Shown piece by piece: positions 881 through 14,604 of a DNA stretch of 33,206 bases (position 1 is the stretch's first letter; each line of letters begins with the position of its first letter). The position numbers and the translations under genes are program-made. The notes under the pieces are model-generated. The model had not been told where the DNA came from, made no database searches, and saw only the letters and a list, made by a program, of their open reading frames with translations. Source of the stretch: a virus; IMG/VR virus record IMGVR_UViG_3300032284_001371, positions 1 to 33,206 of that record. One strand, given 5' to 3'.

Positions 881-1114
881 ATGCAGACCCTTATGGTCAA
901 AGCGACTATAAAGAAAGAGTCAATAACACTACACGATAGGCATTTGCTTTGTATAGCCCTCATCAAGTATGTTATGTCAATACCAACACAGGAGGTAGTA
1001 AGTGTTCAAAGCATACCCCAACAAGGACAGGGTCAAGAAAGTCCAGCAATTGAGGCGCAGTTCGGCATCCTCACCAATACCCAACAAAAAGAGATGGTCA
1101 CGCAAAGTGCGTAG
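881..1114 (+). CDS. Hypothetical protein (77 aa)
   Basis: The ATG at 881 follows a GAAAGAAAGGA site at the spacing used by neighbouring genes; a longer in-frame version from 773 would run through the leader hairpins and is rejected. The N-terminal half reads like a folded domain (MVKATIKKES, ALIKYVMSIP). The C-terminal half is Gln/Ser/Thr-rich and overlaps a second reading frame (1002-1142) with its own AGGAGG site. Either both frames are used or this gene is really shorter. No family recognised. Confidence 0.55.
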   Translation: MQTLMVKATIKKESITLHDRHLLCIALIKYVMSIPTQEVVSVQSIPQQGQGQESPAIEAQFGILTNTQQKEMVTQSA

Positions 1115-1142
1115 GCTATGGAAAAAGGAGATAGAGCAGTGA
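1002..1142 (+). CDS. Small basic protein in an overlapping frame (46 aa)
   Basis: GTG start at 1002 with a strong AGGAGG site at about 990-995. The protein is very basic, with a C-terminal run rich in Lys, Arg and Trp (KKRWSRKVRRLWKKE). Its stop overlaps the GTG of the next gene as GTGA (1139-1142), the type of junction used elsewhere here. The whole 5' part overlaps the 881-1114 gene in another frame by 113 bases, so one of the two may be spurious. Composition suggests nucleic acid or membrane contact; no family recognised. Confidence 0.45.
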   Translation: MFKAYPNKDRVKKVQQLRRSSASSPIPNKKRWSRKVRRLWKKEIEQ

Positions 1143-1318
1143 TTACATTAGCAGATTATGAAAGAGTCAATGAGTTGGCTATGAAATACCCAACCTTTGA
1201 AGAAACAAAGAAAGCAATTGAAACAGAATTCCCCGGCAACATCGTTGTTCGCACACCCACAGGCATTTCTATCCTTGATAAGGAGGAGTTTGATGAACGA
1301 GAGCGTCGTAACAATTAA
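1139..1318 (+). CDS. Hypothetical protein (59 aa)
   Basis: I chose the GTG at 1139 over an in-frame ATG at 1118 because an AAAAAGGAG site (about 1121-1129) lies at the right distance from 1139 and the ATG at 1118 has no site. The product is a mixed helix/strand mini-protein (ITLADYERVNELAMKYPT, then a strand-like NIVVRTPTGISIL) ending in a charged DERERRNN tail. Its 3' end overlaps the next gene by 26 bases in another frame. Function unknown. Confidence 0.6.
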   Translation: MITLADYERVNELAMKYPTFEETKKAIETEFPGNIVVRTPTGISILDKEEFDERERRNN

Positions 1319-1547
1319 ACCTGGAGTTTATTTACAAGGAGATGGCGGGGTATCTACTGGTGCTCTTATACTTGCCCATAAGCAAGCCGATGAATACACA
1401 GATGTAATCCTTTGCTATGCCGAGAAGAGTAAATATGACCCATTTGTTGTGTGGTCTTATGAGCATGATTCAGGTATATGCCGTCGTGGTGATTACTTTA
1501 GAACATTAGAAGAAGCAATGAATATCTACAGAAAGAGGGAGTGGTAA
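1293..1547 (+). CDS. Hypothetical protein (84 aa)
   Basis: ATG at 1293 with an AAGGAGG site lying inside the end of the preceding gene. The sequence alternates strands (VVTIKPGVYLQ, DVILCYAEKS, PFVVWSYEH) and ends in a helix (LEEAMNIYRKREW), so it is probably a small alpha/beta fold. Two cysteines are present but no metal motif. The stop overlaps the next start as TAATG. No family recognised. Confidence 0.65.
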   Translation: MNESVVTIKPGVYLQGDGGVSTGALILAHKQADEYTDVILCYAEKSKYDPFVVWSYEHDSGICRRGDYFRTLEEAMNIYRKREW

Positions 1548-1771
1548 TGAAAGAAGAAGAAAGACTACGTGCTGCTGGCTTTATGACTAAGTCTGAGTTT
1601 ATAGAGAAGATTACCTCAGGTATATCTGCTTATTTAGATAACACATGGCCTACAAAGCCAGATGATTTACATCACCCCGAGGATTTGCTAGCCAATACCT
1701 CTTGCTACATTGAATCTGCCTGTACAACTATTCAAATCTTTGGTTCAGGCAATACAAATCCTAAAAACTAA
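1547..1771 (+). CDS. Hypothetical protein (74 aa)
   Basis: ATG at 1547 shares bases with the preceding stop (TAATG); AGAGGGAG lies just upstream. Predicted helical at the N-terminus (EERLRAAGFMTKSEFIEKI), followed by a Pro/Asp/His stretch (TKPDDLHHPEDLL). It is the last gene before the long structured non-coding stretch from 1772. No family recognised. Confidence 0.6.
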   Translation: MKEEERLRAAGFMTKSEFIEKITSGISAYLDNTWPTKPDDLHHPEDLLANTSCYIESACTTIQIFGSGNTNPKN

Positions 1772-1783
1772 TTTCCCCAAGTT

Positions 1784-2060
1784 TATACAGTCAGGACACA
1801 TACTAAACAGGCTCACAATTACTATAGAGCGGCGAATATACGCAGGGGTGGACTAATCAATGCGTATGGAAACCTAAAAAGTATTCCGAAAACAATATGT
1901 AGTGCTGAGATACCCGCAGGGTTATTAGTTCCTATTACATATGTGAAGATATGGCTATTGAATTGCTAACAATAGTTGTTGGACTTTATGCGAGAGAGCC
2001 TCGGTGATATGAAGTTCGCAGTAATTCTGTGAGTAGTTTAGTGTGTGTCCTGGTTGTATA
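1784..2060 (+). ncRNA. Large structured RNA domain with 25-bp closing helix and pseudoknot
   Basis: The ends 1784-1808 and 2036-2060 pair over 25 consecutive positions, all Watson-Crick except three G-T wobbles. The helix then continues inward: CTCAC 1812-1816 / GTGAG 2029-2033, a 2-nt bulge, and AATTAC 1817-1822 / GTAATT 2021-2026. Inside are hairpins 1838-1844/1861-1867, 1912-1915/1919-1922, 1938-1942/1949-1953, 1955-1960/1970-1975 and 1989-1993/2016-2020. The loop of the first (1850-1857) can pair with 1924-1932 (one bulged T), which would be a pseudoknot. There is no long reading frame on either strand between 1772 and 2260. The large ornate RNA class GOLLD, known from lake metagenomes and phages, is one candidate identity, but I could not match its consensus from memory. 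Confidence 0.75.
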
Positions 2061-2061
2061 G

Positions 2062-2240
2062 ACAACCAATGAAAGGATCATCGAGTTGTGTGTTGAGTTC
2101 GTTAGGAAAGGCATGTGCTAAGGCATTGAAAGCCATACTCAGCAATGAGTTCGCTCAAGTAATGTATCCGACCCCATGGTTCTGACCCTTTTCGATTCCT
2201 ATAGGCTTCGTGGACTATAGATTGAACTGGCGTGCCAAGC
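2062..2240 (+). ncRNA. Possible second part of the structured RNA
   Basis: No gene is visible here. Local pairings include ACAAC 2062-2066 / GTTGT 2085-2089, a hairpin with a GCAA tetraloop (ACTCA 2137-2141 / TGAGT 2146-2150) that competes with TGAG 2146-2149 / CTCA 2154-2157, and CTATAG 2200s / 2215-2220. It may be the 3' domain of the RNA at 1784-2060 or a separate leader. The pairings are short, so the evidence is weaker than for the upstream domain. Confidence 0.35.
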
Positions 2241-2262
2241 CCTCTTTAATCCTGGATAAATG

Positions 2263-2302
2263 ATAGATATTCCCCCGGCTATTGTAGTCGGGGGATATCT
2301 AT
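2263..2302 (+). terminator. 17-bp hairpin matching the convergent terminator stem
   Basis: Stem ATAGATAT 2263-2270 / ATATCTAT 2295-2302, one bulged T, then CCCCCG 2272-2277 / CGGGGG 2289-2294 extended by G-T, C-G and T-A pairs around a 5-nt loop. The core CCCCCGGCT ... AGTCGGGGG is the same as in the terminator at 10873-10902, which is why I call it a terminator. However, no T run follows, so it may instead be an RNA-stabilising or processing hairpin. Confidence 0.5.
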
Positions 2303-2311
2303 GTATAGGAT

Positions 2312-2329
2312 TCCCTACGAATGTAGGGA
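2312..2329 (+). promoter_or_regulatory. Hairpin upstream of the 2356 gene
   Basis: A perfect 7-bp stem TCCCTAC 2312-2318 / GTAGGGA 2323-2329 with a GAAT loop. A downstream CCTAC (2333-2337) could pair with the same GTAGG arm instead, moving structure closer to the ribosome binding site at about 2341-2350. This resembles a translational control element; the effect is inference. Confidence 0.45.
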
Positions 2330-2355
2330 TGTACCTACTAAGAAAGAAGGTACCG

Positions 2356-2556
2356 ATGGCAGAGAAGATGATCTATCGCTGTGGTAACTGCGGTAGGCGT
2401 ATCATGCCACACCAATCCAAGTTAGATATCCATGTCAAGCGTGGCATGGAACACTATCACGAAACTTGGGAGGGTTGCTACGAGTCTACTCGTGAGAAGA
2501 CTGTAGCAATGACAGAGCAAGAGCGTAATTTACAAATGCTCTCTGTTTGGCTCTAG
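2356..2556 (+). CDS. Small zinc-knuckle protein (66 aa)
   Basis: Start ATG at 2356 follows AGAAAGAAGG; the longer in-frame version from 2260 would translate the two hairpins and is rejected. The N-terminus carries a CGNCGRR knuckle (about residues 9-15), followed by His-rich residues (MPHQ, HVKRGMEHYHE) and a lone Cys at about 43 that could complete a metal site. The order C-x2-C ... H ... C suggests a small zinc-binding domain. Function unknown. Confidence 0.65.
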   Translation: MAEKMIYRCGNCGRRIMPHQSKLDIHVKRGMEHYHETWEGCYESTREKTVAMTEQERNLQMLSVWL

Positions 2557-2562
2557 TCATTT

Positions 2563-2595
2563 GGTCCTGAGCATGACCTAAGGTAAAACTGCTCA
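2563..2595 (+). ncRNA. H-type RNA pseudoknot, copy 1
   Basis: Stem 1 is GGTC 2563-2566 / GACC 2575-2578. The loop hexamer TGAGCA (2568-2573) is complementary to TGCTCA (2590-2595) downstream, forming stem 2. Only one nucleotide separates the stems on each side, and the last loop is A-rich. This is textbook H-type geometry. The motif is repeated at 2661-2690. Confidence 0.72.
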
Positions 2596-2660
2596 CCATA
2601 ATTGGTATGGCACGATAGTGATAGCTCTTAGGAGTAAAAAGTATCCTCGCCTACGCCAAA

Positions 2661-2690
2661 CGTCCTGAGCATGACGATTAAAACTGCTCA
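2661..2690 (+). ncRNA. H-type RNA pseudoknot, copy 2, at the ribosome binding site
   Basis: Stem 1 is CGTC 2661-2664 / GACG 2673-2676. The loop TGAGCA (2666-2671) pairs with TGCTCA (2685-2690) across an A-rich loop. Compared with copy 1 the outer pair of stem 1 is swapped from G-C to C-G, so pairing is kept while sequence changes. The element ends about 7 nt before the AGAAAGGA site of the next gene (ATG 2710), a position suited to control of translation. Confidence 0.75.
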
Positions 2691-2709
2691 TTTAACAGAA
2701 AGGATAACT

Positions 2710-2961
2710 ATGAATAGTTTCGTAGATATGAATTCTACACCTATACATAAAACCAATATCTTGCCACTCAGGTGGTTTGCTAATTGGTGTAACCATCTCT
2801 CTGCAAAGCCATTGTGGAATGCTATATTCCACGAAGACTGTGCTAAATATACTGGAGCAAAGTTATCTATACGAGGACGTATGTGGTGGAAGATTTACAG
2901 GATTGTAGATACCCCATATCGCAAGTGGGGAACCACTTATTTAGTAGATTGGCATAGATAA
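2710..2961 (+). CDS. Hypothetical protein behind tandem pseudoknots (83 aa)
   Basis: ATG at 2710 follows AGAAAGGA at 2697-2704; the longer version from 2671 would start inside the second pseudoknot and is rejected. The protein is rich in Trp, Arg and Lys with several aromatic clusters (LRWFANWCNHL, GRMWWKIYRI), giving a basic, aromatic small protein. It may bind RNA or DNA, which would fit self-regulation through the pseudoknots, but this is speculation. Stop overlaps the next start as TAATG. Confidence 0.65.
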   Translation: MNSFVDMNSTPIHKTNILPLRWFANWCNHLSAKPLWNAIFHEDCAKYTGAKLSIRGRMWWKIYRIVDTPYRKWGTTYLVDWHR

Positions 2962-3110
2962 TGATTTCAACAAAAACATCTCATGCCACCACCGACAAAC
3001 TCTTATTTATCATAGAAGCGCAGTTGTTTCACGGCTGCACACGCAAAGAAGCATTGATGCTATGGAACGATGGCATCACTACTCTATACGGACGTGTAGA
3101 GTCTAACTAA
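2961..3110 (+). CDS. Small helical protein (49 aa)
   Basis: Starts at the ATG fused to the preceding stop (TAATG). The protein begins MISTKTSHATTDKL and continues as a likely helix-turn-helix-like pair of short helices (LLFIIEAQLFHG, TRKEALMLWNDG). Size is too small for a complete classical DNA-binding domain. Translation is probably coupled to the upstream gene. No family recognised. Confidence 0.55.
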   Translation: MISTKTSHATTDKLLFIIEAQLFHGCTRKEALMLWNDGITTLYGRVESN

Positions 3111-3706: not shown

Positions 3707-3722
3707 CCAACACAAACAAACG

Positions 3723-13125: not shown

Positions 13126-14604
13126 CTAAGAATCTAACCCTCTATCTAATATTCTACTAGATTGACCCTCACTCAAGCCACCGTTTGGGAGCTCATGAAG
13201 GGTGTTAGCTTTGTCACCAAATAGGGCCGCAAGTACACCACCAGAAGTCTGACGCTCAGCTGTGATCCGGATAAACTCTTTATTCTCTTCCAATTCCTTC
13301 ATTTGATTTACCAACTTAAATAGTCGGTCAATCTCTTGCCCGGTGTTTGGATCCGGGTATCCGCCGTTTAATTCTTCAGCAAAACGTGCAAAAGCTACTC
13401 TAGAACCCTGCATTTCGATAATTGCGTTCAACAAAGATTTTAGTTGGTCCTTGGTTTTTACTTCTACTGGAAGATTAAAAGCACAGGGACTTGATGGCTT
13501 AAAGGCAGGACAGTTGGCTGCTACAAAGCAAGTATCGCATTGGCGTAGAGATATAGGGGCGCTATTAACAACAGGAACATCCCTGATAACATCCCTTCCC
13601 ATCTCATCTTTTTCAACAATTTTCTTTGCTGAGATGCCAAAAACAGGTAGAGTACGGAGCTCATTTGGGTCTCTAGCTAGCAAATCTTTCCGCACCTCAG
13701 GAGTCCTCTTATCAATACCAGACCCCCCTGTTTCCGCAGAACCTGGATCATCTTTATACTCACTCTTATCAGATAGCTTCTTAGGCGAACGTTTTTCCAA
13801 GGACTTCTCCAGCTGCATGTAGGACCAAATAGCGAGGCGGGTTACCTCGTTACTATCATCATTAAGAATCTTATTGTAGTCCAAGCCAGCTCTCTCAATG
13901 ATCGCTTTATAGCGAGGACGAGCTTGATCTTTTTGTTTCTTCTGATAACGAACCAAACGGGTTCCGTCCCAGACAATTGTTTCTCCACGCATCATTGGAG
14001 ATAACCAAGATAGTGAGCTTGCCGTAGACAAAGCAACTTGGCGTAGGTTGTCAGGCTTGGCGCAAGCTACCCCATGAAATTGAAGGTCAGGGAACTGCGA
14101 CAGAAGCGCCCTAGAACGGGCTGCAAGGCTGGTGTCGTCCTCTATAGTCTCACCTAGTAGGGCAATGTTTAAGAAGCGCTCTGCTAGGCCGTAGAGGGCT
14201 GTATGACCGGATTCTGGGTGCCATACAACCCAAAGCTTTTCATCACCTATGTTATCCAGCATCACGCTGCGGTGGTGATTTGTCCAGGCAGCTCCTAGAG
14301 CTACAGCATCTAATTCAGTAGCCCCCGAAATTCTATCGGCATTAATAGCTACCCATTCTTGGTAGCTCTCGGCGTATTCCTGAAGCTCACGTTCACTCAT
14401 ATTAAGATCATTAATTTGGTGCCCACCACCATCTACATAGACTTTCATGTCATCCGGGAATCTTCCCTGGATTAGGTAGTCTTTTGTTTTAGGTAAGCCA
14501 CGTTTAGCTAAACGATAATAGTTAATGCTAACGTGCTTTGCTCCAGCGTTGGCAAGTAAGATGCGATGGGACGGGACTTCAGCCCCCATGAAAACTAGGT
14601 TCAT
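13126..14604 (-). CDS. TGT/DpdA-like TIM barrel fused to a cysteine-rich C-terminal domain (492 aa)
   Basis: N-terminal domain (about 1-265): VYVDGGGHQ (D58) resembles the DSGGFQ motif of tRNA-guanine transglycosylases, and FHGVACAKPDNLRQV followed by ASSLSWLSP recalls the HG-x-G ... S-x-D-S-x-SW region of DpdA, which inserts 7-deazaguanines into DNA. The expected second aspartate (nucleophile) is not evident near 193-200. Linker 266-350 is charged. C-terminal domain: C356, C359, C365, C374 (likely zinc site), then a helical region with MQGSRVAFARFAEE and GGYPDP. ATGA overlap with the HAD-like gene upstream. No deazaguanine synthesis gene is visible in this window. The C-terminal part resembles DNA-binding domains of phage proteins. 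Confidence 0.5.
   Translation of the reverse strand: MNLVFMGAEVPSHRILLANAGAKHVSINYYRLAKRGLPKTKDYLIQGRFPDDMKVYVDGGGHQINDLNMSERELQEYAESYQEWVAINADRISGATELDAVALGAAWTNHHRSVMLDNIGDEKLWVVWHPESGHTALYGLAERFLNIALLGETIEDDTSLAARSRALLSQFPDLQFHGVACAKPDNLRQVALSTASSLSWLSPMMRGETIVWDGTRLVRYQKKQKDQARPRYKAIIERAGLDYNKILNDDSNEVTRLAIWSYMQLEKSLEKRSPKKLSDKSEYKDDPGSAETGGSGIDKRTPEVRKDLLARDPNELRTLPVFGISAKKIVEKDEMGRDVIRDVPVVNSAPISLRQCDTCFVAANCPAFKPSSPCAFNLPVEVKTKDQLKSLLNAIIEMQGSRVAFARFAEELNGGYPDPNTGQEIDRLFKLVNQMKELEENKEFIRITAERQTSGGVLAALFGDKANTLHELPNGGLSEGQSSRILDRGLDS

Follow-up and report, generated by a model that had tools for sequence, protein, structure and literature searches.

The DNA analyzed here (the window) is a virus record of 33,206 bases from a group of freshwater phages. 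A stretch with no credible ORF separates a 74-aa gene ending at 1771 from a 66-aa gene starting at 2356. The question raised by this locus is whether the 277-nt region at 1784-2060 within this stretch is a functional RNA and, if so, of which kind.

The WhiB-like gene at 449-691 and the AAA ATPase, whose closest named relatives are found in Gordonia and Brevibacterium phages, together indicate an actinobacterial host; the hosts of these phages appear to be freshwater actinobacteria. The window also contains, at 13126-14604 on the minus strand, a queuine tRNA-ribosyltransferase-like gene (PHROG 887, E 3.9e-51) that perhaps has a role in 7-deazaguanine modification of phage DNA.

The Region Is Closed by a Long Unbroken Helix

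An earlier reading of the DNA from its letters alone (the sequence-only reading) had claimed a closing helix of 25 bp. The helix proved to be even longer, with 28 contiguous pairs, four of them G-U (Table 1), while the longest helix found in 60 dinucleotide shuffles of positions 1001-3000 was 20 bp. The claimed inward continuation of 11 pairs was read directly and is also present in the predicted fold (D helix 1 in Table 1). The folding energy of 1784-2060 is −100.1 kcal/mol, compared with −66.3 ± 4.7 for shuffled sequences (z = −7.26). Since the minus strand of the same region folds less stably (−72.0, z = −4.6), the plus strand is, by this modeling, most likely the one that is transcribed and read as RNA.

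Table 1. Coordinates of the features of the locus (window positions) and the observations bearing on each.
Feature	Position	Strand	Evidence
Upstream gene, 74-aa conserved phage protein of unknown family	1547-1771	+	Adjoins C in most carriers, in both clades
Closing helix, 5′ strand: P1 of core C (1782-1791, UUUAUACAGU), then P2 (1793-1808)	1781-1808	+	Pairs with 2036-2063; P1 and P2 covary (16 sequences); equivalent D helix covaries
D interior, nested in P2 of core C	1809-2035	+	Matches stand-alone D RNAs (HMM E 5e-50, CM E 3e-19, both with the window itself in the training set)
D helix 1, 5′ strand (partner 2021-2033, 2-nt bulge)	1812-1822	+	Fold; A9 helix 3
D helix GAG(N)/(N)YUC, 5′ strand (partner 2014-2017)	1827-1830	+	A9 helix 4, 100% paired
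D2 hairpin, stem 1838-1844/1861-1867, 16-nt loop 1845-1860	1838-1867	+	6/6 modeled pairs compensatory, 17 sequences
Pseudoknot strand GGACUAAU in the D2 loop	1850-1857	+	103/104 pairs kept, 13 sequences, six strand combinations
D4 stem 1895-1903/1934-1942, inner hairpin 1913-1915/1919-1921	1895-1942	+	8/8 D4 pairs compensatory
Pseudoknot partner strand AUUAGUUCC	1924-1932	+	103/104 pairs kept over 13 sequences
Closing helix, 3′ strand: P2 2036-2051, P1 2053-2062	2036-2063	+	28-bp pairing; P1/P2 covariation
C conserved core (model R1)	2052-2230	+	E 2.9e-37, window in training set; covariation 0.645
Motif GGUUGUAUAGACAACC: hairpin b (2052-2055/2064-2067), loop containing the P1 3′ strand	2052-2067	+	Near invariant; one compensatory G-C/A-U exchange
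C helix P3 (2112-2115/2175-2178) around arm P4 (2132-2133/2153-2154; 2137-2141/2146-2150)	2112-2178	+	4/4 P3 pairs compensatory
C hairpin P5 (2199-2204/2215-2220, outer 2191-2196/2221-2226), loop RYUUCGUGRR	2191-2226	+	6/6 inner pairs compensatory; loop conserved
Long downstream hairpin	2263-2302	+	Seen directly; sequence-diverse equivalents at the same place in other clade A phages
Short stem GUACCU/AGGUAC pairing the Shine-Dalgarno sequence of the next gene	2331-2353	+	Seen directly; conserved in 8 sequences
Downstream gene, small zinc-ribbon-like protein, 66 aa	2356-2556	+	Relatives by tblastn

The Sequence after the Helix Belongs to RNA Family C

Relatives of the AAA gene, which gave 33 phage loci, served as the starting point of the search. 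By BLAST, three loci (L003, L005 and L025) match the window in 2036-2266, i.e., after the helix, and differ in the interior. Additional members of the family defined by these matches, designated C, were found with a 16-nt motif, GGTTGTATAGACAACC, and further pattern scans. In an alignment of 17 members, 92.5% of cells are paired and 19 of 24 pairs have changed on both sides; the covariation score is 0.645, compared with 0.214 ± 0.021 for shuffled alignments and at most 0.104 for slid ones. Helices P1 and P2 of C add 18 further pairs, 91.7% paired across 16 sequences, with a score of 0.594 against at most 0.142 when slid. Model R1 detected C in 20 of 46 related records, one copy in each, and in one later locus, L347; two extra matches had E > 0.1, and the one that was inspected is coding. 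In a tree of the AAA protein, C carriers make up two well supported clades, all sampled members of which are positive.

The sequence-only reading had regarded 2062-2240 as a possible 3′ part of the 277-nt domain. This is half correct: the sequence is indeed a conserved RNA that has the closing stem in common with the domain, but its family is a separate one and is mostly found in the domain's absence. The sequence GRUUGUAUAGA is part of both P1 and hairpin b of C, and covariation is seen in both elements; they would form either a tight pseudoknot or two alternative, competing folds. A pairing between UUCG of the P5 loop and CGAA of the P4 arm was weighed but discarded, as L046 keeps the loop and has lost the arm.

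Several candidates were rejected. A short-pattern scan of bacterial genomes retrieved 117 stretches, none of them a convincing member by the C HMM, and L342 (a transposase-like stretch), L340 (coding) and L344-L346 are chance pattern matches. Four clade B phages (L043, L089, L099 and L130) have extra conserved hairpins up to ~135 nt upstream of C, one with the conserved loop GUGAGGGUA; none were seen in the window.

The 277-nt Domain Is an RNA Family in Its Own Right

The possibility that the variable interior is unconserved filler was rejected, since the domain, designated D (~280 nt), is conserved and its relatives sit elsewhere in genomes. Covariance models and HMMs showed that D stands alone as an RNA in some 20 records of related phages. 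A distant relative, L031 (53% AAA identity), carries an RNA that resembles the window interior, without C, and the 3′ end of the RNA common to L031 and the window recurs in many sister phages. An HMM built from eight members revealed D in nearly all sister clades and, in L099 and L058, as a separate element downstream of C. With model R2, D was found in 22 of 46 records at E < 1e-5.

Among 14 members, 69 predicted pairs hold, 52 of them with compensatory changes, and the structure score is 0.481 compared with at most 0.135 for slid versions; as this structure was derived from the alignment used to score it, the score leans towards itself. When 17 members were aligned by means of the model, which fits the alignment to the model structure, 96.5% of cells are paired, 16 of 17 pairs are compensatory and the score is 0.715 (at most 0.124 when slid).

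The claimed internal pseudoknot consists of eight pairs and one bulge. From the window sequence alone it could have arisen by chance (P about 0.06-0.3). In relatives it is conserved with compensatory changes: when the pairs were placed by hand over 13 members, one bulge being permitted, 103 of 104 cells were kept (Table 1). The pseudoknot occupies the same positions of the 16-nt hairpin loop in the window and in L031.

No conserved ORF overlaps C or D on either strand, and the observation that no protein can be read in the region is upheld by the lack of a reading frame conserved across relatives. The sequence-only reading had proposed a functional RNA of a possibly new class and had named in advance two outcomes that would speak against it. 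Both came out the other way, compensatory changes being abundant and no frame being conserved, and the functional-RNA reading therefore holds; the lack of an Rfam match agrees with a new class. Judged by comparison across relatives, C and D are real, conserved RNA structures on the plus strand, without conserved coding.

D Is Nested in a Stem of C

C and D are unrelated families, and D was found within P2 of C in no record other than the window. P2 is normally a short hairpin, for example in L002, L006, L046 and L048. The two strands of P1 are separated by 27-35 nt in most C members, compared with 211-262 nt in the window, L003, L005 and L025. In the latter three phages, the same P2 site holds other structured domains: L003 and L025 share one and L005 has a third. 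These inserts (L003 3609-3787, L025 3662-3839, L005 4247-4476) have folding z values of −4.7 to −5.8; no relation of the L003/L025 and L005 inserts to D or to each other was detectable, and they are possibly further RNA families.

One can ask whether D is a self-splicing or other mobile, intron-like ribozyme inserted into C. Its nesting in P2 and the unrelated domains that L003/L025 and L005 carry at this site would fit such an origin. However, no Rfam group I, group II or ribozyme family matches, D normally stands alone between genes and not inside them, and its closing helix holds the ends together rather than joining exons. We give this explanation hardly any credence. The records compared reveal D as a modular unit, alone in sister clades and nested in C in the window.

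Among records of ~99-104 kb, C was found and D not detected in G024 and G039, and D was found without C in G007, G010-G012, G014, G015, G019, G030 and G033. Models R1 and R2 found neither RNA in some large records (G026-G029); absence from a record may reflect fragments or an incomplete record as well as model sensitivity. Since relatives of about full size mostly have one RNA and rarely both, this near-complementary distribution, drawn from records that may be incomplete, points to roles for C and D that are probably similar or interchangeable. The arrangements form a natural series, from D by itself and C by itself through C and D at separate places to D, or other domains, nested in C, which suggests that RNA domains are swapped into a stem as protein domains are. 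More tentatively, C and D may be two new, mutually replaceable classes of phage non-coding RNA that recombine by insertion of one fold into the stem of the other and are together the mark of a function in takeover or assembly, based on RNA, that is shared by a group of viruses of freshwater actinobacteria.

Gene Neighborhood and Proposed Role

No promoter-like or terminator-like sites bracket the RNA just outside its ends; the single terminator-like match, at 2014-2034, is inside D. Co-transcription followed by processing is therefore the most economical assumption.

The RNA could be a cis-acting leader that controls translation of the zinc-ribbon gene, perhaps by switching between P1 and the competing hairpin b. 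The covarying overlap of these two elements is consistent with this, as are clade A phages, in which a long hairpin and a Shine-Dalgarno-pairing stem occupy a fixed place before the gene. However, clades A and B have different genes downstream of C: in clade B, C is followed by genes other than the zinc-ribbon gene, which, where found, is ~3 kb away. Likewise, D is located between genes and precedes different genes in different phages. Neither RNA thus has the one fixed downstream gene by which a riboswitch or cis-leader would be recognized. This variation from clade to clade in the genes after C and D makes a purely local role in regulation less likely, and we consider a cis-acting leader improbable.

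The zinc-ribbon gene has a conserved leader at 2263-2356 of the window, with the long hairpin, a UCCCAC/GUGGGA-type hairpin and the Shine-Dalgarno-pairing stem; cis-regulation is thus possible in clade A, with autoregulation through these modeled structures as one option.

An 11-12 nt motif, CCAACAYAAACA, occurs in the window at 3708, 6227, 8031 and 10023 on the plus strand and once on the minus strand. In many relatives (e.g., L003, L005, L025 and L012) it recurs every 1-2 kb, oriented with transcription, both between and inside genes, for instance within the AAA gene of most relatives, ~450 nt from its start. There are up to 13 copies in 17 kb, compared with ~0.05 expected from shuffles. The motif resembles the start-associated sequences of cluster K mycobacteriophages in placement only.

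Action at the DNA level, e.g., in replication or packaging through a signal extruded as hairpins, would account for the conserved location of long inverted repeats, and CCAACAYAAACA, a recurrent oriented motif, often adjoins C. Against such action, G-U is frequent in conserved pairs (P1 columns 4, 7, 8, 9 and 10; closing helix columns 11 and 12), the plus strand folds far more stably than the minus strand, and the pseudoknot and internal loops are conserved. We regard a DNA-level signal as very unlikely.

The best explanation, and in our judgment a fairly probable one, is a composite structured non-coding RNA of ~450 nt (1781-2230) made of two families, processed and acting in trans. In this composite, core C comprises P1, hairpin b, the P3/P4 arm and hairpin P5, with D occupying the end of stem P2. 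The RNA would be co-transcribed with the neighboring small genes and released by processing; its long double-stranded stems would make it a suitable substrate for RNase III. Its target in trans may then be a protein or ribonucleoprotein of host or phage, for which the folded RNA would serve as a scaffold or decoy, as suspected for other large phage RNAs.

Comparison with Known RNAs

A scan against 4227 Rfam families, at gathering and relaxed thresholds, gave no match to the window or to members of C and D, and a blastn search of named phages with C and D revealed no carrier of either RNA. A literature search found no fitting description, which is weak evidence of novelty, most subscription papers being outside its scope. 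No tRNA or tmRNA was detected in the 33-kb window by ARAGORN or Rfam.

GOLLD had been suggested as a possible relative. This suggestion was not borne out: model RF02032 gave nothing at E ≤ 10 in 17 related records, and the other Rfam scans were negative. The likeness is a general one, GOLLD being a large phage non-coding RNA first reported from lake samples, with pseudoknots and a function that is still open. GOLLD has a conserved 3′ region and a less conserved 5′ region (PMC12286853); here, the C core is conserved and the part inside P2 is variable or absent, an analogy of layout only. Many GOLLD members exceed 800 nt, compared with ~450 nt for C and D together (1781-2230). GOLLD is encoded near tRNA genes, whereas the window has none, single tRNAs being found a few kb or less from C in some relatives. 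In addition, the variable part here is a domain swapped into a stem, with stand-alone relatives of its own.

ROOL is likewise a large phage or prophage RNA with pseudoknots and an open function (PMC12286853), but there is no ROOL match in the window or in relatives of C and D by Rfam. Assembly into a homo-oligomeric RNA cage is a further feature of GOLLD and ROOL. OLE and raiA-type RNAs are also large, highly structured and of poorly known function; they differ in being known from bacteria (PMC12286853) and have no Rfam match here.

The first phage isolates of freshwater actinobacteria now exist (PMC10202952), which would allow the RNA to be studied in infected cells. Few classes of large phage non-coding RNA are known, the functions of GOLLD and ROOL among them being still open; C and D add two, which come with covariance models, dozens of homologues and a conserved pseudoknot.
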